This document shows positions 1 to 43,725 of a stretch of DNA of 64,000 nt, piece by piece. The stretch is from a virus: positions 186,001-250,000 of IMG/VR virus record IMGVR_UViG_3300042868_007959; one strand, given 5' to 3'. The notes under the pieces were generated by a model. That model did not search any database, was not told the origin of the DNA, and worked only from the letters and a program-made list of their open reading frames with translations. Positions within the stretch are counted from its first letter, which is position 1; every line of letters begins with the position of its first letter. The position numbers and the translations under genes were made by a program.

Positions 1-86
1 TGAACATCTTGTATATCTTGAGTGGAAATACTTTCTATTAGAATATTTATATCTTCTATAGTTTTTAAATACTTATTTATATCCAT
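1..86 (-). CDS. Partial gene, probable tape measure protein N-terminus
   Basis: Only the first 28 codons lie in the window; the frame runs off the left edge. The start is the ATG at 86, reading MDINKYLKTIEDINILIESI and onward, a helical stretch without Cys or Pro. The gene follows the gp26-like gene and its overlapping downstream frame on the same strand. In contractile- and long-tailed phages the tail assembly chaperone pair is normally followed by the tape measure gene, so tape measure is the best positional guess. The visible sequence alone does not identify it. An AATATTTAT motif sits about 15 bases upstream (102-110). Confidence 0.5.
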   Translation of the reverse strand, partial: MDINKYLKTIEDINILIESISTQDIQDV

Positions 87-122: not shown

Positions 123-353
123 TTATTCTTTTGGTATTAGATAATCTATATAATATTTACGCATATAAGTTGGCATAATCAGAATATCTGAATATGAAAA
201 ACCTCTATTAACTAAAAATAATATCTCCCTAAGAAGATATTGTTGATGGTTAGATGTCAGGCCAAAATAAATTTTTATTGATTCTAAGAAAGGTATTAAC
301 GGACTCTCCCCCCTGAGTCCTAGCAATGACATTAAAATTAATTCCTGGCTCAA
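123..353 (-). CDS. Small protein overlapping the gp26-like gene; possible frameshift extension
   Basis: A 76-residue frame begins inside the 3' end of the gp26-like gene and overlaps it by 104 bases in the other (+1/-2) frame. The C-terminal half (FSYSDILIMPTYMRKYYIDYL) looks like a real folded protein with a conserved Phe-Ser-Tyr, Met-Pro and Arg-Lys-Tyr-Tyr pattern. It may start independently at 353. It may instead be the C-terminal domain of a frameshifted gp26-like product: the overlap contains a run of six G (308-313) at which a -2 slip would join the frames into about 301 residues. This arrangement resembles G/GT tail assembly chaperones. The function is inferred from context. Confidence 0.6.
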   Translation of the reverse strand: MSQELILMSLLGLRGESPLIPFLESIKIYFGLTSNHQQYLLREILFLVNRGFSYSDILIMPTYMRKYYIDYLIPKE

Positions 354-1062: not shown

Positions 1063-3231
1063 TTATACTATTTCTATTGGTTCAACAAGAACTTCTATTT
1101 TACCAAACATTTTATCTAATTCATTTTGATCGATAACTTTATTGGTATCTACATCATCATCAAAATCGTCTGGATCTACAATTATACCACCTTCTGATCC
1201 TGCATCAACTTCTCTTTTCTTATTCCAATACTCTGAACAAGTTTGATCTAATTTATTTTCTAAATCTACTAATTTCCCAACAGATAAAGGTTTCCCATCT
1301 ACACTTGTTTTAGGTAAAAATCCCGCTATTAATTCGTCAACTGTTGGGACTTTGGGGAATGCACCACCGACCAATGGGGTATTTCTTAAAAAATCACTTA
1401 TGTCTTTGAACCATTCATTATCTCTTTCTTTACCTTTAAATTGTTCATTAGTTTCTTTTTCAAAATTTTGTAAAGATTCCTTTAAGTATTTTATACGCTC
1501 TCTTAATTTTGTAGATTTACCTTCTTTATCATTACAAAAATCTTCAATTTCTTTTTGATTCCATGAGGCAATATTTACTATATTATTATATTCTACACTA
1601 AATTCTTCTAATGCCGTCATATATTCATCTTTTTTATTAAAAAAAGCGTCTACTTTTTGGTTACATTCACTTATACAACTATTAGTATTAGCATTACCAT
1701 AACCGAATTTACTTTCACATTTTGATCTACATCTAGCGTAACCAATTTTCCTTAAATTTTCTAAATCTCTTTTAACAGATTTCAGTGGTTCTACTACTAA
1801 AAATCCTAAAGGATGATACTTCCATAGTTTACTATTACCATAATCGGCACCTGCAGTCATTATTAAGGATTCTGAATCAGGTAAACTACCTCTTTGGGTT
1901 GATACATAAATTTCATTTAAACTAATTAAAGCGACTTGTTCTACCACAATTATTCTAAGGACATCTTCTATATTTTTCATTCTTTTACCTGACCAACCTT
2001 CAGCATTTTTAGGCATGTTATAGTCAACAAAACTAAATCTTTTATTACTATATAACTTTTTTCCTGAAGTAAGAAAACGAACCACTTTTAAACTTTCAGA
2101 TATTGTTGGGAATATATATCTAAAAGTTTGTCCTAGTTTATCGTTAATTTTACCCGCAAAATTATTTTTTGGGGTATTGTCTACAATTGTTTTTTGTATT
2201 ATTGGGTTTTCACCACTAGTTGGATCTACGTCAAAGTCTTTAATAGGACTCGATGGTGGAGTAACATCTATAGGTTTTAAATTTTTCTGACTAATTAAAT
2301 TTAAATTATCATCAAATATCAATTCAAACCCCTCAACAATATTAACACTTCTATAACCACCATTTGGTAATTTTACTATTAATACTTTCCCACCGTCAAT
2401 TTCTTTTGCTAATCCTTCAGGTGTAATACTTCTCCCTTTTCCGTCACCTAAATTTTTAAGTGCTCGTTCAATAGCATCTATTATTTCACCTTTTATTACA
2501 TCAGGATTACCATTCGCATTTATTTCATCTGTTGTTGCTTTAGTTGGTCCAGCAGAAGAACCACCATCAACACCATCATAATAGTCATTTACTTCCTTAC
2601 TAGCACTATTAGGATCATATGTATCATCTTTTTTAATATTATCACCTTCTATTTTATAAGTTTCTATTTTTTCTTTACCACCCACAGTCTCTACTTTATG
2701 AACAACATTTTCACCTGTATTAGATTTAGTAACTATGGTAGTTTTAGATTTAGTTTTTGGTGGTGTATATTTACCTTTACTTTCTTTCCATAAATCAAAT
2801 ACCATACCTCTTAAATCACCTTCAGCGGGTAAATCATTTATCACCTGTAAGATTAATTTATCATCCGCAGTTTTTAAGAATCCACTATCTGACCATTTTT
2901 TAAATGATAAAATTGCGTCATTTGCGTAATCCCAGTTAATGCCCATAGATCTCCATAAAGATTTATAGTCGTTTAAATGTCTAGCTAAATCATCAAAAGT
3001 ATTAATTTCGGCATTTAAAAAATTAGTTGCAAGTTTTGGGTCAACATTTTTAATAGCTTTTGCAACTGAAGAACTAGCCGTCTCTAATGCATCAGATAAT
3101 CTTCTACCAATACCTTGTTCAGTTAATAGTTTATTTTCTTTTAAATTACCATATAATCTTTCCTCAGTAAATAAAGATTTAATTCTCTTCATTTCTTCAT
3201 TTAAATTATTATATTTTTTTTTCATATTCAT
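1063..3231 (-). CDS. Tagged virion protein with SEQGIGRRL-type domain
   Basis: 722 residues. The N-terminus carries the recurrent tag (LNEEMKRIKSLFTEERLYGN), followed by LLTEQGIGRRL, where LLTE and LFTE fit the T4 prohead-protease site (L/I)xE. Residues about 38-165 are close to the N-terminal domain of the 998-residue protein at 7636-10632 (shared AKAIKNVDPKLATNFLN, DYKSLW, LPxEGDLRG, FDLWK), so the domain is duplicated. A Lys/Thr/Asp-rich linker follows. The C-terminal half has a small Cys cluster (CRSKCES, CISECNQ, about residues 500-525) and a helical region, ending in an acidic tail. No enzyme motif was found. I infer an internal capsid protein, perhaps injected. Confidence 0.65.
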   Translation of the reverse strand: MNMKKKYNNLNEEMKRIKSLFTEERLYGNLKENKLLTEQGIGRRLSDALETASSSVAKAIKNVDPKLATNFLNAEINTFDDLARHLNDYKSLWRSMGINWDYANDAILSFKKWSDSGFLKTADDKLILQVINDLPAEGDLRGMVFDLWKESKGKYTPPKTKSKTTIVTKSNTGENVVHKVETVGGKEKIETYKIEGDNIKKDDTYDPNSASKEVNDYYDGVDGGSSAGPTKATTDEINANGNPDVIKGEIIDAIERALKNLGDGKGRSITPEGLAKEIDGGKVLIVKLPNGGYRSVNIVEGFELIFDDNLNLISQKNLKPIDVTPPSSPIKDFDVDPTSGENPIIQKTIVDNTPKNNFAGKINDKLGQTFRYIFPTISESLKVVRFLTSGKKLYSNKRFSFVDYNMPKNAEGWSGKRMKNIEDVLRIIVVEQVALISLNEIYVSTQRGSLPDSESLIMTAGADYGNSKLWKYHPLGFLVVEPLKSVKRDLENLRKIGYARCRSKCESKFGYGNANTNSCISECNQKVDAFFNKKDEYMTALEEFSVEYNNIVNIASWNQKEIEDFCNDKEGKSTKLRERIKYLKESLQNFEKETNEQFKGKERDNEWFKDISDFLRNTPLVGGAFPKVPTVDELIAGFLPKTSVDGKPLSVGKLVDLENKLDQTCSEYWNKKREVDAGSEGGIIVDPDDFDDDVDTNKVIDQNELDKMFGKIEVLVEPIEIV

Positions 3232-3241
3232 ATATTTTATG

Positions 3242-3925
3242 TTAATGTTGTAATAATTTTAATATTTCTGTTTTATCCATACCCTTATTGAGAACATTAC
3301 CATTAACAATATTACTACTATTTAGATAATAAGTAAGGACATCACCAAATTTTAATACACCTGAAGGTATATTCATAGAACTAGATTCACTACTACTAAT
3401 TGTCACATCTACTAAACTACCTGAACCATCTTTCTTTTTAAATGGTGAATTTTCCCAATCAGAGCTACCTCCTTTAAAAACACCTACATATTTAAAGGTA
3501 GAGGTTCCGCCTTTTATTTTGATGTCGGTACCATCACATTCGTATTTTGATCGGTACATTAATTTTTTACTACCATTTTCTGGATTTAATAAAAAAGTTA
3601 ATATTAATTGATTATCGGAATAAAATGTTAAATGAAAAGTAGGTATACCACTTGTTTTATAATTACTTTTAGCCAATACGAAACAATCTTCTACAGTATT
3701 ACCAGCAGAAGCAACAGATATTCTACCACTTACATCTGATAAAGCTTGTTTTGTACATTTTATATTGTCGTTACTATCACATATATTTTCAGATTCAGTA
3801 GGATTAAAAACTTTATATCCATTAGATTCTAAATCTTCCTCACATTGTTCTAAATCTCCACCACATTGTTCTTTAAGCAACATTAAAGTTTTAATTCTAT
3901 TTAATTGCTCCGTTAAGTTCTTCAT
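3242..3925 (-). CDS. Tagged virion protein, unknown function
   Basis: 227 residues starting MKNLTEQLNRIKTLMLLKEQ, the clearest short form of the shared tag; LLKE followed by Q fits the (L/I)xE cleavage pattern. Six Cys occur in the first 60 residues after the tag (CGGDLEQCEED, ENICDSNDNIKC), followed by a Ser/Gly-rich beta-type body (VSGRISVASAGNTVEDCFV, LTFYSDNQLILTF). The gene sits between two other tagged genes and its 5' end overlaps the 62-residue coiled-coil gene by 29 bases, so the two are probably translationally coupled. No family recognised. Confidence 0.55.
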   Translation of the reverse strand: MKNLTEQLNRIKTLMLLKEQCGGDLEQCEEDLESNGYKVFNPTESENICDSNDNIKCTKQALSDVSGRISVASAGNTVEDCFVLAKSNYKTSGIPTFHLTFYSDNQLILTFLLNPENGSKKLMYRSKYECDGTDIKIKGGTSTFKYVGVFKGGSSDWENSPFKKKDGSGSLVDVTISSSESSSMNIPSGVLKFGDVLTYYLNSSNIVNGNVLNKGMDKTEILKLLQH

Positions 3926-4085
3926 TAAATATTTTTTTTAATTCTTCTTTATATAATTGTATTTCTTCTTGTAAGATTTCAATACTCTCTTTATCATTTA
4001 TATTATAAATATTAAATAAATTATTAATTTCATCTAATCTATTTTTTATAATATCTATTCTTTCTTGTATTTCTAAAACTATCAT
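3897..4085 (-). CDS. Small coiled-coil protein
   Basis: 62 residues, almost entirely charged helix with heptad-like spacing (IQERIDIIKNRLDEINNLF, then IEILQEEIQLYKEELKKIF). The start overlaps the stop of the 612-residue gene by four bases (ATGA type), and its end overlaps the next gene by 29 bases. Such tight coupling on both sides supports a genuine gene in the operon. It could be an assembly partner or chaperone of a neighbouring tagged protein; this is a guess from size and context. Confidence 0.55.
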   Translation of the reverse strand: MIVLEIQERIDIIKNRLDEINNLFNIYNINDKESIEILQEEIQLYKEELKKIFNEELNGAIK

Positions 4086-5920
4086 TTTTGATTTTTTAAA
4101 TAATCCTCTTGTTGTTGATTTAATAAATCTATTGCATCCGATCCTTTTTTACCGTCATCTACACCAGACACTGCATCCATCTCTTCTTTATTATCAACGT
4201 ATCTAACATTATCTTTTCTATTCTTTTCATCGGTAGGTGCCATTTCTATATTAGATACTTCTTTACCACTTATACTTTTATTCATTAAATCAGAAGTTTG
4301 TGTAGATAACCAATCCTTAAATTTTTTAGTTTGAAATTTAGGGTTATTTAGTAACCACTCTCTTGATTTTTTTATATCGTCTTCAGTTGGTATTTCTTCA
4401 CTTTTTGTCCAAGGTCTCCATCCTTTAGTATAAGCGTTATTAAGTAATGTATTATCTGTAATTGATCCATCAGAAAGAAATATTTCTTTAGTAGACTTCC
4501 AGTCATAACCATCATTTTTAATATTAGTTTGCACAGTTGGTTTAAGAGAATGTTGTACTAAATTAATTTTATCCGATAACCATTTAGCTACTTCAGGTTC
4601 ACTTAAAACCTCTGATAATATAACATACATACCTAACTCTTGTAAAGCTTCTTTTCCTGCAATAGTTTTCATATACGCATTTAATGATGTAACTACATCA
4701 CCATTATTTTGTAAAACTAAATTTTTAAAGTTTTTATTTTTTGAAACTGTAAGTAAGTTAGCCCTACCTACCCTACTTTCTATTTTTGTTAATGCGTCAC
4801 TGTAAATTTTTGCAGATTTAGGATCAATTTTAGCAAAATTATTAATTATATCGTGTCCGACTAATATCTCAGATTGATTAAGTCCGTATTTATCTGCAGT
4901 TTCTTTATAAATTTTTACTAATTTTTGATTTTTTACATCGGTTGATACATTTTTTAAAAGAGGTAATTCATTATCAACCCTTTTAATTACATCATCCGCA
5001 TACTTATAAACTTTAATATTTGCACTACCTTTAGTCAATATTCTATTAGTTTGACTAACACCTCCTCCTAAAAATCCACCAAAAAGTGTTAACCCACCAG
5101 CGAGTATAGCGGCATCTCTTTCTTCTTTTGTTTTCGCATTAAAAGCCTCGACACCATATGTAGAAGCATTCGCAAAATCTATTCCCGCACTTAACGCTAA
5201 CCCAACTCCTGGTATTGCTAGTACTGCAATAGAAGCGATATCCAAAGCACAATGATAGTCACTAAAACAATCCCCAATATACTCCCATACACTGGTAGAT
5301 TTTTCATATTGATTTAAAGTTCCCTTATTGTATGAAATATCATAACTAGCAATTTTTTGTATTCTGTTTTTTATTTGACTGTAATTATCTGACCCAAAAT
5401 ACTTAGTAAAAAAGTTCCACCAACCTTCAGGAAAATAAGACGACCTCCAAGCATTTTTATCATACTTAAAAGTTGCTTCTAATTCTTTTTGAATTTTTCC
5501 CCACTGAAAATAAATAGTATCATTATTTGCGATATCAGATGCTCTCTGTTTACCTATCATTTTATCCGATATTTGATCAGCCAAATCACTGAAATCTTTT
5601 GCAACATATAGTCCACCTCCCGCTGCCACATTACATGTACCTAATTCCGCTTTTGAAATACAAACATCATACATACCTTTGGTACCTGTAATTACTTTTT
5701 CAGCGATATAAACATTATTTAATTCCTTTATAGCATTTAATGCTGATTGAGCAAAAACATGATTGGCAGACAATGAACCACCTATTAAATAATTGGGCCA
5801 ACCATTACTTCTTAAAAAATTTTTAGTAGATTCAACCTCATTACTAATAGATGATTTAGTTTCTTCTTTTAAAAATATTCTTTTATATTGATTTTCCGTT
5901 ATGAAAATTTTTTTTTTCAT
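4082..5920 (-). CDS. Tagged virion protein with pre-toxin-like hydrophobic region
   Basis: 612 residues. The N-terminus (FITENQYKRIFLKEE) is a variant of the shared tag with FLKE as the likely cleavage point. Residues about 225-295 form a hydrophobic Gly/Ala-rich stretch (CALDIASIAVLAIPGVGLAL, then ILAGGLTLFGGFLGGG), which recalls the pre-toxin regions that precede toxin domains in bacterial polymorphic toxins and could insert in a membrane. The middle is helical (KYADDVIKRVDNELPLL, AETADKYGLNQ-like segments). The C-terminus is hydrophilic with repeated Lys/Asp. No catalytic motif was identified. I infer a head-packaged protein that may cross or perturb the host membrane on infection. Confidence 0.55.
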   Translation of the reverse strand: MKKKIFITENQYKRIFLKEETKSSISNEVESTKNFLRSNGWPNYLIGGSLSANHVFAQSALNAIKELNNVYIAEKVITGTKGMYDVCISKAELGTCNVAAGGGLYVAKDFSDLADQISDKMIGKQRASDIANNDTIYFQWGKIQKELEATFKYDKNAWRSSYFPEGWWNFFTKYFGSDNYSQIKNRIQKIASYDISYNKGTLNQYEKSTSVWEYIGDCFSDYHCALDIASIAVLAIPGVGLALSAGIDFANASTYGVEAFNAKTKEERDAAILAGGLTLFGGFLGGGVSQTNRILTKGSANIKVYKYADDVIKRVDNELPLLKNVSTDVKNQKLVKIYKETADKYGLNQSEILVGHDIINNFAKIDPKSAKIYSDALTKIESRVGRANLLTVSKNKNFKNLVLQNNGDVVTSLNAYMKTIAGKEALQELGMYVILSEVLSEPEVAKWLSDKINLVQHSLKPTVQTNIKNDGYDWKSTKEIFLSDGSITDNTLLNNAYTKGWRPWTKSEEIPTEDDIKKSREWLLNNPKFQTKKFKDWLSTQTSDLMNKSISGKEVSNIEMAPTDEKNRKDNVRYVDNKEEMDAVSGVDDGKKGSDAIDLLNQQQEDYLKNQK

Positions 5921-5931
5921 ATTACTATTAG

Positions 5932-6972
5932 TTATTTAACTTTTGGTTCGACTCTAAATGTACAATCATTAAGATTATTATCTGCATCTATAATTGTAAT
6001 ATTATGTTCCGATGGTTTTAAATTTAATGTAGTATATACCGCATTAAGTGAATCTGATCTAAAACTAATTTTTATTTTCCCGTTTTGAGGATTTTCTTTT
6101 TTCTGCATAAAAGTATAACCTCTTTCACCATTAAATTTATATTGGTTTCCTGTAATTTTCTTTATTTTACCAATTACCCTACCTCTAGTATCTTTGACAT
6201 CATATTTTTGACCTTCTACTCCTTTTGAAACTGAGGCTTCCCCACTTCTATAATCAGATATATATTTATTCTCCTCAAATGAAGATATCATAGTCATAAG
6301 TTTTTCATTACCCTCAAATTTATTATAGAAATTAGCCATACATCTCTCTACAGTTTTATATGCATCTGGATCAAACCCAAATTCTTCTAAATCTCCAGGA
6401 CCAGCCCCTTTAGACCAAGCTTTATACATTGCTTTAAGATGTTCTTTACAACTATCTATATTATTGCTAATATCTTTTCTATCTACTTTTACGTCAGTTT
6501 TAATATCTTTTTTGATACCTTTACCTTCTTTTTTGGACATAAACTGTAATTCCGCATCTTTTGTAATATAAATTTCTACGGGTGTACCACTATCATCATT
6601 AACTCTTTTTTTAACATAATACATATCTTTACCTGGTTTTGGTCTAGATACTGTCCCTAACTTCAATTTAATGTCAACAAATGACATTCTTTTCACATAA
6701 GTCTTTCCACCAATAACTTTTTGTTCATAGAAATCTAATGAATCACTTTCACTCCCTTCTATTTCTTTTTTCTTTTCATCTGTTAATTCAACAAATCCTT
6801 CAGGAATGTTCGGATTAGGTTTACCATCATCCTTTTTACCATCATCCTTCTTATCATCATCAACTGGTTTATCATCCTCACCTTCTACTAAATTCCCAAA
6901 CAATCTCTCTTCAGTAAATAAAGATTTCATTCTCAGTATTTGTTCATTTAAATTTAAAATATTTTTTCCCAT
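5932..6972 (-). CDS. Tagged virion protein with acidic linker
   Basis: 346 residues. The N-terminus LNEQILRMKSLFTEERLFGN matches the tag of the 722-residue protein almost residue for residue. It is followed by a low-complexity Asp/Lys linker (about residues 34-52) and then a mixed alpha/beta body (YEQKVIGGKTYVKRMSF, YVKKRVNDDSGTPVEIYI). The C-terminal part is beta-rich (GRVIGKIKKITGNQYKFNG). No known domain recognised. It is the first gene of the tagged group in transcription order, preceded by an AATATTTATT motif at 7005-7013. Confidence 0.55.
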   Translation of the reverse strand: MGKNILNLNEQILRMKSLFTEERLFGNLVEGEDDKPVDDDKKDDGKKDDGKPNPNIPEGFVELTDEKKKEIEGSESDSLDFYEQKVIGGKTYVKRMSFVDIKLKLGTVSRPKPGKDMYYVKKRVNDDSGTPVEIYITKDAELQFMSKKEGKGIKKDIKTDVKVDRKDISNNIDSCKEHLKAMYKAWSKGAGPGDLEEFGFDPDAYKTVERCMANFYNKFEGNEKLMTMISSFEENKYISDYRSGEASVSKGVEGQKYDVKDTRGRVIGKIKKITGNQYKFNGERGYTFMQKKENPQNGKIKISFRSDSLNAVYTTLNLKPSEHNITIIDADNNLNDCTFRVEPKVK

Positions 6973-7635: not shown

Positions 7636-10632
7636 TTATTTTTCAATAATAATTCTTTTCTTTTTAGGGTTATTTGGGTCAGATGTATCATACACATTAA
7701 AATGTATCTCTGGATATTTCACACTCAATTCTTTCCTTATTAAATTTTCAATAATCTCTATATTACTTAAATCGTCATCACTATAACCAACACTAATACC
7801 CTCAAAATCAGGGTTATCCTTTATTTCTTCAATTTGTTCTATAACTCTTTCCACAAAACTCCTAAACGCAATTTCTTTTCCTTTTTCGGGATTTGTACTT
7901 GATATATCTAAACCAAAACTATTTAAAAATTCTTTTGAAGATACTGGATGATAATCTTGTAATTTAAGATAATCATTTATTGATGTGTCTTTAAGGTTAC
8001 CCATCATTTTTTCTTTTTCACTATAAGAAAAGTTTTTATCTATTAATACTTTAATACCATCTATTAGTGACTGTGGTGAATTTGATCTGGCAGTAATGAT
8101 AGAGAAGTCATCTCCATTAATTAAAGCCTCTTTAAAATCATTAAAACTAGGTCCGTAACTTCTACTATCTATTGCATATTTAACATCTCTAATAAAAGAA
8201 TCGTACTCTCTAAAATCTTTAAACGCTTCTAATATGTCATTATTAATATATCTAAACTCATCACCTAATTTATGTCTAATAGATCTAAATTGTTCGGTAG
8301 AAACTGAAACAGGTACCCAATGTAATCCACCAACTTTATATTCTAAATGAATTCTTGTTGGCATTTTTAAAATATTATCATCCCAATCGAATGAATATGT
8401 TTTTTTGATTGATTCAGTTAAATAACTTTTTTTATATATAATAGATTCATTTTTGGGAGTTTCATTCTCATCATCGGTTAAACCACTAACAATAAATGGT
8501 AATAACGCTGGAAATCCAGCCTCAATCAACTTATAAGCTTGTCTATATAAATCCTTTTCAAGTTTTTTTGCTTGTTCAGGATAAATTTTTTTCCATTTAC
8601 GTTCTAATTTACCTAGTACATCAAAAAATTCTCTTGGTATATTATTAACCCAAGCATCAACATCTTTTAACTCATTTCCTAATTTAACTTGATCAGTAAC
8701 ATTTTTATTTAAAAATTTATCTATAAATGTTTTAAAATAATCTTTTATTTTTTCTACACCTGTTAGATTATTAATATTTGGTTTTTCTGCACTCAACATA
8801 GTTTTATATTTTTGTAAGTCAATATCTACTAATTTCTGAGATTTATTTGTCCCCCTTAAATAATCAACTAGAAAAGTTGCAAAACCTTTATTTTTTTCTA
8901 AAGTACCTAACTCCAACAAAGTTTTAATATTTGCAGTGAATTCCGCCTCAATTTCCTTAACATGACTCCAATAACTTAAATCACTTGCAGATTCTTTTAC
9001 AATCCTCTCAATTTCGGGTGTAGTTATATTATTCTCTATATATTTTAAAAATTGTCTATCATTTAAATTTTCTGTTTTGTTTTTTATTTTTTTATAATTA
9101 TCCCCAAACTCAGACCAACTATCAATTGATAATTTTAGAGATCTAATTTTAACATCGTTACCAAATAAATTTATATCAAACTTAGTAAGTGGGATTTTCA
9201 CTGTATCCTTACTTATATATTTTTCAGGTATAATTTTATTTTCTAAAGCCCATTTTTTGAATTCATGTACCCAACTGTAATCCTTACTAGTATCTATATT
9301 TTTTTCCACCCCAAATTGACTAACCGCCTTTTCAGCAGCGTCATTATCCTCTCTTTGCCATTGGAAAAAATCTGCGTTATCTACTTCCTCATTTTTTATG
9401 GGTGTCTTTTCTCTTTTACTTTTTAAATAATCCCAAGCCTCTTTCCCATCTACGAATTCGCTTGATTTATAAGTATTAAAACTATGATTACTTTTTTTTT
9501 GTATGACGTGTGTTAATTCATGATAAATCGTATGAAATATAGTATTTTTTAATTCTTCTAAATCTTTAGGATTTCTAGCTTTTTTTATTTCTTTTGTATT
9601 GATTATAACCCATTGACCCCAATTACCATTTATTTCATCTGCATACATTCTTACCCCTAAAGGAACATCGTATCTATAAACATACTTTTCTTTTAATTTA
9701 GGATCTTTTAATATTTTTTCATTTTTAACCCAGTCCTTTATATACGGTTTTTTATCCCAATCAGCATTTTCAAAAGTCTTATCATATTCCTCTTTATATA
9801 GATCAAATAATTTATCATCATCAATTTTTGCATTATTAAACTGCTCAGGACCTTTATCATTTAAAGAAAATTTTACGTTATCACCATTTATCTGTAATGT
9901 AACATAAATAGGTTCACCAGTATTTGTATCATACCCCCATTGATCCTCAAAACCATATTTTTTAAACGACGCATCTATAATATCCCACTCATCTTTTGGA
10001 ATATCAGATAATTTTAATCCAGATACTTGTTGTGGTATTTCTTTAGAATCTGTATCTAAATCTATTTTAGTATCGTCTATATTTGATAAATTACCTTCAT
10101 TATCTATAGTATAATTTTTTATCTCACCACCTTCAGTTTTTTGTACTATATTCTTACCACTTTTTTTATCTTTAACTACAATAGTTTGTGATTTAGGTTT
10201 CGTTGGTGAGTACGTACCTTTACTTTTTTTCCATAAATCAAAAACTATCCCCCTTAAATCTCCTTCAGTTGGTAAATCATTTATCACTTGTAAAATTAAA
10301 TTATCATCTGCAGTTTTTAAGAATCCACTATCTGACCATTTTTTGAAATTAATAACTGCCTTATTTGTGTAATCCCAGTCAATTCCTGTTGATTTCCATA
10401 AAGATTTATAGTCATTTAAATGTTTACCTAGATCATCAAAACTTTTTATTTCAGTATTTAAAAAATTAGTTGCAAGTTTTGGATCAACATTCTTAATAGC
10501 CTTAGCGACTGCGGAAGAACTATCTTCTAAAGCATCCACTAATCTTCTACCAATTCCTTGTTCAGAAATTAAATTATTATTTAAAAATTTTTTTAATTTT
10601 TTAATTTCCTTTTCTGAAAATAATTTACTCAT
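7636..10632 (-). CDS. Tagged virion protein: SEQGIG domain + zinc metallopeptidase + HAD domain
   Basis: 998 residues with three recognisable parts. Residues about 20-150 repeat the SEQGIGRRL domain of the 722-residue protein, behind a short basic helix ending LISEQ, a candidate (L/I)xE cleavage site. Around residue 370 is FHTIYHELTHVIQK, an HExxH zinc peptidase motif in a helix, with Glu/His-rich sequence downstream. From about residue 744, YSFDWDDNILKMPT, SIITARSNSPQ and VGYSDDDLSN match HAD motifs I, II and late-motif Asp residues of a phosphatase-like fold. The middle is helical. I infer a capsid-packaged multi-enzyme protein delivered with the DNA; the substrates are unknown. It begins three bases after an AATATTTATT motif. 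Confidence 0.7.
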   Translation of the reverse strand: MSKLFSEKEIKKLKKFLNNNLISEQGIGRRLVDALEDSSSAVAKAIKNVDPKLATNFLNTEIKSFDDLGKHLNDYKSLWKSTGIDWDYTNKAVINFKKWSDSGFLKTADDNLILQVINDLPTEGDLRGIVFDLWKKSKGTYSPTKPKSQTIVVKDKKSGKNIVQKTEGGEIKNYTIDNEGNLSNIDDTKIDLDTDSKEIPQQVSGLKLSDIPKDEWDIIDASFKKYGFEDQWGYDTNTGEPIYVTLQINGDNVKFSLNDKGPEQFNNAKIDDDKLFDLYKEEYDKTFENADWDKKPYIKDWVKNEKILKDPKLKEKYVYRYDVPLGVRMYADEINGNWGQWVIINTKEIKKARNPKDLEELKNTIFHTIYHELTHVIQKKSNHSFNTYKSSEFVDGKEAWDYLKSKREKTPIKNEEVDNADFFQWQREDNDAAEKAVSQFGVEKNIDTSKDYSWVHEFKKWALENKIIPEKYISKDTVKIPLTKFDINLFGNDVKIRSLKLSIDSWSEFGDNYKKIKNKTENLNDRQFLKYIENNITTPEIERIVKESASDLSYWSHVKEIEAEFTANIKTLLELGTLEKNKGFATFLVDYLRGTNKSQKLVDIDLQKYKTMLSAEKPNINNLTGVEKIKDYFKTFIDKFLNKNVTDQVKLGNELKDVDAWVNNIPREFFDVLGKLERKWKKIYPEQAKKLEKDLYRQAYKLIEAGFPALLPFIVSGLTDDENETPKNESIIYKKSYLTESIKKTYSFDWDDNILKMPTRIHLEYKVGGLHWVPVSVSTEQFRSIRHKLGDEFRYINNDILEAFKDFREYDSFIRDVKYAIDSRSYGPSFNDFKEALINGDDFSIITARSNSPQSLIDGIKVLIDKNFSYSEKEKMMGNLKDTSINDYLKLQDYHPVSSKEFLNSFGLDISSTNPEKGKEIAFRSFVERVIEQIEEIKDNPDFEGISVGYSDDDLSNIEIIENLIRKELSVKYPEIHFNVYDTSDPNNPKKKRIIIEK

Positions 10633-41667: not shown

Positions 41668-43725
41668 ATGAAAAAAAACAATTTAACAGAAGAATTAAAT
41701 AGGATAAAGAATCTAATGGTTTACAATAATGGAGACTATAGAAATCCTATATATGAATTTGAGTTATTAAATGAAGCCCCTACTGATGAAGTAAAAGAAG
41801 TTTCTTTACAAGCCAATTTTAAATCAGGTAGATGGAAAGATACATCGTTACCAAAAACAGAAATTTTGGCTGAACTTAAAGAAGCAATAGATTGGCTAAA
41901 ACAAAAATCTAAAGAAATAAAAGATAGTGGTGGTATAATAGGTGGACAAGCAAAAATTTTAACAGTTCAAATAGAAGCTGGAGAATCACAAGTAACCAAT
42001 TACGATGCTGAAGTAGATCCTAAAGTCAAATTAGAAGAAAAAGTTTTATCTGAAAGAAGGGCTAAGACTATACAAACTTTCTTAACTAATTACTTTAAAA
42101 AATTACAAAAAGATAAGACTATTGATGCAATACCTGTATTTGAGGCACCTGTAGTTAAAATTGGTCCAACACCTTGGAATCCTAAAGGAGGTGATGAAGC
42201 GACAGATAAAAAATTTACTAAAGAACAATATATAAAAGTTAATTTTAAATTAACTCCACCTTCAGCTTGTTTGGAGGGATTAGTTATTGAGGTTATGTAT
42301 GTAAAAGAACCGAATCCTTCATTTCCATGTAGAGGAGGACACCAATGTGACGACGCATTATTTGATGTTTATTTGAATGAGACTAAATTAGATGGGGTAG
42401 CTAACTTAAATAATGCCGAAGATGGTGGAAGTAGAAGTTCTAAATTTGTAGTTTCACCACAACAAGCGTTATCGATATTAGGTAATAAACCAGGAAACAT
42501 TATGATATCTTTTGTATGTAAAAACAAAGATAAAAGATGTCACTCAAGTACACCTGAGATTAGATTAAGTAAAGGTGGTACAGTTGTATATCACGAATGT
42601 ACACCCTCAATCAGTGAAACTAATGATTATTCTAAAATAGATGTGATGGAATTAGATGCGTGTGGTAATTTAATTAAAAAGGGTCAAGAAAAGAAAACTG
42701 CACAAAAAGATGAATCTTTAATGAAACCACCTGCAGGTATCAAAAAAGGGTGGGTGGTTTACGACATTGCAACTAAATTACCTGTTTTTAAAGATACTTC
42801 GGCTTCTACAGATTTACAAGAAAATATTTACAAAAAATACTTACCATTATACGGTTATAATTTTGGTGGTTACGAACCTGAGATTTATAAAGGTAATTGT
42901 AATGAAGCAAAAATTTACGGTGGATGGTGTTTGTGGTCAGGTATAAAAATTAATTATGTAAATGATCAATTTTGTGGTGGAGCTGAATCGGGTTCGTCAT
43001 ATAAATTAGGTTCAGAAAGTACGGTTAATACTAATTTAGGTAAAAGTATAACTAATAGTATGAGGAATTATATGTTAGATAATTGTGATAGTTCTACTAT
43101 GGGAGTAGAATTGGGTGACATAATAACAGTTAAAAAAGATGATATACCAAAACAATTTAATTTTAAAAGATTATATTCTCCATTAGGAGTTTATTCTAAC
43201 CCAAAAATTGTCGGTAATGCATCTACACCATTTAAATTAGTTCCAAATGAAAAACCTAATGGTATAAATTTCACACCTAAATTATTTACAGATTTTGTTA
43301 ATAATATATATGGCACAGAACAAACCACAATAAAAACTCAAAACCTAATCAATTTAATCACAACCACTACTGTTTCTGATTTAAGTGATTCGACAAATGC
43401 AATATCATTCTTCATCACCACTACAGATGAAACTTTTGGATCTACAACATTTCCTAATTCAACAAAAATCGATTCGTATGTTAGTAAATATAATACATTT
43501 AAAAATGAAAAATTAACGGGAAGTGTTGTAGTTGGTGGATTTAAAGAAATACAAAATACATTTCTTAGTTTAAGTGTTATCAGAAAATATGAAAAGGGTA
43601 TTTTTAAAAACAATACTTTACGTGTTATGTTATATGGAAATCAACCATATTCATCAGTTGCGCAAAAATTGATATCTTTAGGATTGATTAAAGAAAAAAG
43701 TGGTAAATTAGTTTTATCTAAATAA
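41668..43725 (+). CDS. Tagged virion protein, OmpA-like domain, paralogue 2
   Basis: 685 residues. The tag NNLTEELNRIKNLMVYNNGD and following NPIYEFELLNE parallel the previous gene. The OmpA-like region (ILTVQIEAGESQVTNYDAEV, then LSERRAKTIQTFLTNYFKKL) has the typical Ser-x-x-Arg-Ala helix. The beta centre (CLEGLVIEVMYVKEPNPSFP, ALFDVYLNETKLDGVANLNN) is homologous to that of paralogue 1. The C-terminal 300 residues are different and have a Cys/Trp/Gly-rich part (KGNCNEAKIYGGWCLWSGIK) and a final helical domain. Tandem duplication followed by divergence of the C-terminal halves is evident. Confidence 0.6.
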   Translation: MKKNNLTEELNRIKNLMVYNNGDYRNPIYEFELLNEAPTDEVKEVSLQANFKSGRWKDTSLPKTEILAELKEAIDWLKQKSKEIKDSGGIIGGQAKILTVQIEAGESQVTNYDAEVDPKVKLEEKVLSERRAKTIQTFLTNYFKKLQKDKTIDAIPVFEAPVVKIGPTPWNPKGGDEATDKKFTKEQYIKVNFKLTPPSACLEGLVIEVMYVKEPNPSFPCRGGHQCDDALFDVYLNETKLDGVANLNNAEDGGSRSSKFVVSPQQALSILGNKPGNIMISFVCKNKDKRCHSSTPEIRLSKGGTVVYHECTPSISETNDYSKIDVMELDACGNLIKKGQEKKTAQKDESLMKPPAGIKKGWVVYDIATKLPVFKDTSASTDLQENIYKKYLPLYGYNFGGYEPEIYKGNCNEAKIYGGWCLWSGIKINYVNDQFCGGAESGSSYKLGSESTVNTNLGKSITNSMRNYMLDNCDSSTMGVELGDIITVKKDDIPKQFNFKRLYSPLGVYSNPKIVGNASTPFKLVPNEKPNGINFTPKLFTDFVNNIYGTEQTTIKTQNLINLITTTTVSDLSDSTNAISFFITTTDETFGSTTFPNSTKIDSYVSKYNTFKNEKLTGSVVVGGFKEIQNTFLSLSVIRKYEKGIFKNNTLRVMLYGNQPYSSVAQKLISLGLIKEKSGKLVLSK

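Follow-up and report, generated by a model that had tools for sequence, protein, structure and literature searches.

A hairpin with a Shine–Dalgarno-like loop upstream of a putative +1 frameshift site in a gp26-family tail assembly chaperone gene

The chaperone locus

The 64,000-nucleotide stretch analysed here, called the window, comprises bases 186001–250000 of a 253,879-base IMG/VR virus record, and the genes discussed lie on its minus strand (Table 1). Close relatives were collected by protein search and more than 100 others by profile searches. A 20-mer scan returned 16 viral contigs, each matching at the same point of the gp26-like gene, and one further member of the window's clade is a genome contig (L157). 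The clade has 22 members, of which 21 distinct, aligned sequences were used in the codon and loop counts; because these sequences share ancestry, counts within the clade are not independent.

Table 1. Features of the chaperone locus and of neighboring ORFs (window positions unless marked L002)
Feature	Position	Strand	Remarks
gp26-family tail assembly chaperone, short form (G / TAC-N), 258 aa	250..1026	-	profile and predicted fold
Downstream frame	123-353	-	overlaps the gp26-like ORF by 104 nt
T domain, 54 codons, LESIKIYFGL...YLIPKE	126..287	-	entered only after the shift; stop 123-125
RNA hairpin GGACUC-AGGGGGGA-GAGUCC, 6 bp stem	301..320	-	conserved across 22 relatives
Hairpin loop with SD-like core GGRGG	307..314	-	contains the G-run 308-313
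Proposed shift site UUU CUU AGA	283..291	-	+1 slip UUU_C -> UUC
Relic of family-wide slip site, TTA TTT TGG CCT	259..270	-	elsewhere TTT TTT TGG CCT
Next gene, start of 165-aa ORF	1..86	-	L002:15589-16086; mostly outside the window
Tape-measure-like 656-aa coiled-coil ORF	L002:13445-15415		after the 165-aa ORF, almost wholly outside the window
ORFs with N-terminal tag	1063-3231, 3242-3925, 4082-5920, 5932-6972	-	
ORF with N-terminal tag	41668-43725	+	

The short form of the gp26-like gene product matches the phrog_150 baseplate hub profile (E = 6.7e-5), and its relatives fall just above or below the cut-off of the Pfam family T4_baseplate (PF12322), with SP-15 reaching the threshold and nearer relatives remaining beneath it. 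The predicted structure of the short form, the only form modelled, has a pLDDT of 89, and a fold search with this model matches T4-like baseplate hub and hub assembly chaperones, the best named match being SP-15 (E = 6.7e-17, TM 0.80). The same model gave no significant match among PDB folds, where the HK97 chaperone 2ob9 reached no better than E = 5.6. Matches of sequence or predicted fold thus assign the gene to the gp26/T4_baseplate family.

Cultured relatives carry sheath, tube, chaperone, T and tape measure genes in that order. The window's record keeps this order with other ORFs in between, so that the gene sits between tail tube and tape measure genes, as G/GT genes do. The tape measure gene does not directly follow the overlap, as the original prediction had it; a 165-aa ORF precedes the tape-measure-like one. 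The G and T parts each occur as a single copy in the record, which may be incomplete, and no second, fused chaperone gene of the kind used in the T4-style two-gene solution was found in these 253,879 (possibly incomplete) bases. One copy of each fits a need for recoding.

Two further observations concern the ORFs nearby. The large ORFs at 1063-3231(-) and 7636-10632(-), near the tail genes, have in common a 183-residue stretch with 67% identity (EQGIGRRL...LWKESKG), a duplicated module, and are unlike in the remainder. Several ORFs of the window also open with a similar short N-terminal tag, L-x-E-x-x-x-R-I/M-K-S/T/N-L (for example, NLNEQILRMKSLFTEERLFGNL), which is perhaps a targeting or cleavage signal of virion proteins.

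The downstream T frame

The downstream frame lies at +1 (equivalently, −2) relative to gp26, and the 104-nt overlap on which the original prediction was built is present. Past the gp26 stop codon, the pN/pS of the T frame is 0.24 in the window's subgroup, versus 1.04 and 1.78 for the other frames; in a second subgroup the T-frame value is 0.32, and other frames range from 1.0 to 1.8 across subgroups. These values mark the T frame as a genuine protein extension under purifying selection. The motif YSD(I/L)..MPT..R of the T domain is kept in more than 100 relatives, and the C-terminus of T4 gp51 aligns with the T profile at this motif, with a score of only 1.1 bits to which we give no weight. 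In the deposited annotations of Flavobacterium immuto (L026), Microcystis Mel-JY01 (L024) and Rhodothermus RM378 (L163) phages, the T frame is a separate small gene, left out, or hypothetical, and the join is unannotated.

An overlapping downstream frame that is selected as protein and has no start of its own is what a G/GT arrangement would have. Because the upstream gene belongs to the gp26 family of tail assembly chaperones, the sequence comparisons give good support to the original view of the two frames as a G/GT-like chaperone pair connected by a frameshift.

A conserved hairpin around the G-run

The original prediction drew attention to a run of six G within the overlap, read as CAG GGG GGA GAG. 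The run is there, and such runs are unremarkable in frequency, numbering 6 in the window versus 8.5 expected in shuffles. What had been missed is that the run is enclosed by a perfect inverted repeat, GGACTC-AGGGGGGA-GAGTCC; it is this setting, and not the G6 alone, that is above chance.

The predicted stem is maintained by compensatory changes. In addition to GGACTC/GAGTCC, the clade contains CGACTC/GAGTCG (L043), GGATTC/GAATCC (L077), GGACGC/GCGTCC (L078) and GGATGC/GCATCC (L076), and in L047 and L048 the stem is formed in a two-base shifted register (CAATCC/GGGTTG), so that these two count against covariation in the unshifted register. Double changes are seen in three of the six pairs (9 cells), a result matched by none of 500 shuffles. 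The mean stem is 6.9 bp long versus 3.8 in synonymous-codon resamples (maximum of 2000 means, 4.7), in a test that takes the sequences as independent. An Rfam search at the locus gave only chance-like snoRNA matches below threshold.

Conservation extends to the loop, where GGRGG is found in all 21 distinct clade sequences with the variants AGGGGGGA, AGGGAGGA, AAGGAGG and CTGGAGGT; elsewhere in these genes only 30% of Gly codons end in A or G. On this comparison, the G-run is one version of a Shine–Dalgarno-like hairpin loop. The conservation of the run itself, proposed as a check on the original prediction, breaks down: G6 is absent from eight of the 22 clade members, five of which (L033, L034, L047, L048 and L049) also lack G5, and both frames are kept regardless, an outcome that the original prediction had itself named as speaking against it.

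Position and direction of the shift

The alignments bound the shift on both sides. On the 5′ side, a slip at the G-run would lead, in 14 of 22 clade members, into a frame closed by TAA or TAG no more than three codons on, immediately 3′ of the hairpin; L044, which hardly differs from the window, is one of the 14. On the 3′ side, 17 of 21 sequences follow AGA with a C-ending codon (ATC, TTC; backgrounds 7% and 14%), which keeps a serine in the +1 frame. Because of the +1-frame stop upstream and the conserved +1-frame Ser downstream, comparison confines the shift to TTT CTT AG (283-291). TTT CTT is invariant in 21 of 21 aligned genes, nine bases past the stem, and CTT makes up only 10.5% of the Leu codons in these genes.

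A +1 slip at UUU_C appears the most likely shift within this segment, and a +1 slip from CUU_A to UUA would yield the same product. Of the 117 sequences with T in the +1/−2 frame, 116 offer a site for strict +1 re-pairing, whereas 17 have none for strict −2. The tRNA-Leu might instead slip by −2 from CUU to UUC at the same site, with SD pairing of the loop pulling backward, an alternative that we consider unlikely but to which we allow a small real chance. It is retained because allowing a G-U first pair makes the slip possible in the window, where two Watson–Crick pairs would be kept as well. SD-like elements farther upstream usually drive backward shifts, a −2 shift is reported for phage Mu (PMC5009743), and the family nearly always uses TTT for the first Phe codon, a preference that a +1 slip at the second codon would not need. 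However, relatives with TTC TTT TGG or TTC TTT CGT (L096, L139, L153 and L164) cannot re-pair after a −2 slip, which gives UCU, and the re-pairing counts favor +1. The −2 direction of the original prediction is thus conceivable at a site other than the one named. Its product of about 301 residues would follow from a −2 slip, which at CUU would create the junction ...TFLLESIK; the +1 slip would give 300 residues.

The wider family and alternative sites

About 90 more distant relatives enter the same T extension at TTTTTTTGGCC, among them Microcystis phage Mel-JY01, Flavobacterium immuto phages, Bacillus phage SP-15, Listeria phage LIS04 and Rhodothermus phage RM378; the short-frame ending and a +1-frame T domain are common to them. 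The sequence is exactly TTT TTT TGG CCT in 63 of 87 general-family sequences. In 12 of the 87 a +1 stop lies no more than 2 nt upstream of the T-run, which places the shift at the T-run in those sequences. The window's clade forms one branch of the tree (100/99 support) nested among T-run lineages, so the T-run is likely ancestral, and TTTCTTAG with its hairpin derived.

A shift at the relic of this run, UUA UUU UGG near the gp26 stop, with the hairpin and TTTCTTAG serving as a distant stimulator or otherwise employed, ranks next and is likewise unlikely. The site is the ancestral one, and in the window its UUU_U can pair perfectly again once shifted by +1, but the run has decayed in the clade (for example, TTTTTCTGG, TTTTTCTTT and TTTTTCTAT) and the conserved +1-frame Ser already lies upstream of it. 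No +1 stop separates TTTCTTAG, the clade's proposed shift site, from the T-run in the 22 sequences.

Upstream elements also recur in the general family. Of 94 sequences, 63 have a GGAGG-type core that begins 20–45 nt ahead of the slip codon (11 expected from synonymous resampling, maximum 21), with clusters at 28 and 31 nt; other 30-nt stretches of these genes contain such a core in 3.5% of cases. Hairpins upstream of the T-run number 22 versus 10.4 expected (maximum 20), a mild enrichment that is suggestive. In a few relatives, Stenotrophomonas phage RAS14 among them, the T domain lies in the −1 frame (L029, L089, L098 and L165), with stretches of the type U UUU UUC or U UUU UUU A; judged by frame, the direction of shifting flips within one protein family. 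In a sister clade (L086, L090 and L091), a long stem (CGCCCCA/TGGGGTG type) carries AGGAG in its loop and finishes a few nucleotides ahead of TTTTTTCGG, possibly a second hairpin arrangement at the same locus.

The remaining explanations fare worse. That the downstream frame is an independent gene, translated from a start of its own, a counter-reading raised with the original prediction, is very improbable. TTG and ATG codons do occur upstream in the window, but these starts lack an SD and are not conserved. The TTG at 353 is cut off from the rest of the frame by a stop in 14 of 22 relatives, no conserved start codon for the T frame was found in the 22 clade relatives, and L042, L044, L045, L049, L050, L076 and L037 have no start codon at all from the +1 stop up to the T domain. 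The −2 slip at the G-run that was first proposed now seems scarcely credible: the G6 is present, GGA re-pairs with GGG after −2 and the frame is open in the window, but the early stops in most relatives, the relatives without G6 and the place of the G residues in the hairpin loop argue against it, and the locus shows neither the conserved G-run nor the open frame beyond it that mark a Mu-type −2 shift. Transcriptional slippage in place of ribosomal shifting is just as hard to credit, since T7 or G6 runs could slip in relatives but the bounded site TTTCTTAG has no run above three, and at the G-run the same stop codons are met.

These readings predict different tryptic junction peptides for the window: TQGGESVNTFLESIK for +1 at UUU CUU, TQGGESVNTFLLESIK for −2 at CUU, NLFGLTSNHQQYLLR for the relic site and TQGGESPLIPFLESIK for the G-run.

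Proposed mechanism

All of the evidence is comparative: it shows that the T frame is coding, where the shift lies and that hairpin and loop are conserved, while the occurrence of the shift, its +1 direction and efficiency and the part played by the hairpin are inferred. We think it probable that ribosomes shift at UUU CUU AGA, most likely by +1, to yield a long and a short chaperone, with the hairpin and its GGRGG loop acting as a 5′ stimulator. The gp26-like ORF would by itself give the short form, while some ribosomes would enter the +1 frame at 283–291, most likely when tRNA-Phe slips by +1 from UUU to UUC, and would continue as far as 126 to produce a 300-aa long form with the T domain. 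As in the lambda G/GT system, the task of the short form would be to coat the tape measure, and that of the long form to recruit the tail tube protein. The hairpin would refold once the ribosome has passed, some 9 nt 5′ of the P-site codon, where it could mimic an SD:anti-SD duplex or offer its loop to 16S rRNA; the SD-like sequence of the loop suggests 16S pairing as well.

Some observations count against this explanation. A +1 slip might equally take place at UUU_UGG, positions 262–267 of the window. Classically, GGAGG placed upstream stimulates backward shifts at 8–14 nt and +1 shifts only at about 3 nt; here the hairpin ends 9 nt before UUU and the GGAGG-type loop core lies 16 nt from it, which fits neither classical distance. 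The likely host group also barely uses SD pairing: among the window's ORFs of at least 100 aa, an SD-like sequence precedes the start codon in only 2 of 54, and the A/T-rich leaders suggest an SD-independent host. As for that host, relatives include Flavobacterium phages and flavobacterial MAG contigs, and one clade member was found within a Prochlorococcus single-cell assembly.

More tentatively, and as a possibility that we lean slightly against, the element may be a natural 5′ stimulator of forward shifting, in which a refolding hairpin presents an SD-like loop behind the ribosome. It would have arisen in a single phage lineage out of the GGAGG seen upstream across the family, and would work in hosts whose initiation scarcely relies on SD pairing.

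Comparison with known systems

Recoding of G/GT chaperones is known; the variant with a 5′ hairpin and an SD-like loop appears to be new. A large, mostly uncultured phage group with T4-like (gp26-family) chaperones would use frameshifting, with the site, direction and upstream elements of the shift readable from about 120 sequences. The locus offers a natural, covariation-supported 5′ hairpin at a putative shift site, and raises the question of what role GGAGG plays 16–30 nt upstream of a slip site.

The direction of G/GT frameshifting varies between phages (−1, −2 or +1), and a 2016 review names T4 as the exception to it (PMC5009743). As in lambda G/GT, a single gene would give two products, with an out-of-frame C-terminal T extension and adjacent tail tube and tape measure genes. 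Unlike lambda, the protein here belongs to the gp26 family and the +1 frame would be entered at UUU_YUU, with GGAGG and a hairpin upstream in place of a −1 heptamer. The T4 tail assembly chaperones gp26 and gp51 share the fold family. Some T4-like phages reportedly make short and long chaperones from two genes, which would account for the T4 exception (Vladimirov et al. 2022, PMID 34826709, as described in papers citing it); in those accounts the short gene and the fused long gene are separate, whereas the present locus has one gene with an out-of-frame extension.

The chaperones of Vandenendeviridae and Andersonviridae use a −1 frameshift at GTTTTT (PMC12846349). They resemble the present family in the chaperone locus and in a poly-T slip site close to where the short frame ends, and differ in that they shift −1 with no upstream hairpin described, whereas the frame here is +1/−2. 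The prfB gene, including that of Bacteroidia, where the anti-SD is occluded and shifting with AGGAGG nevertheless persists (PMC8710568), shares the +1 direction, the CUU codon and an SD-like sequence upstream. In prfB, however, the SD lies 3 nt from CUU with a stop codon in the A site, whereas here the SD-like core is farther off, in a hairpin loop, and the A site would hold a sense codon. Engineered hairpins likewise act from the 5′ side: set upstream of a CUU-type +1 site, they imitate an SD duplex and so stimulate +1 shifting in 70S extracts (PMC6321510). Those hairpins are artificial; the present one, recognized by sequence comparison, would be a conserved example from nature, and one whose loop is SD-like.
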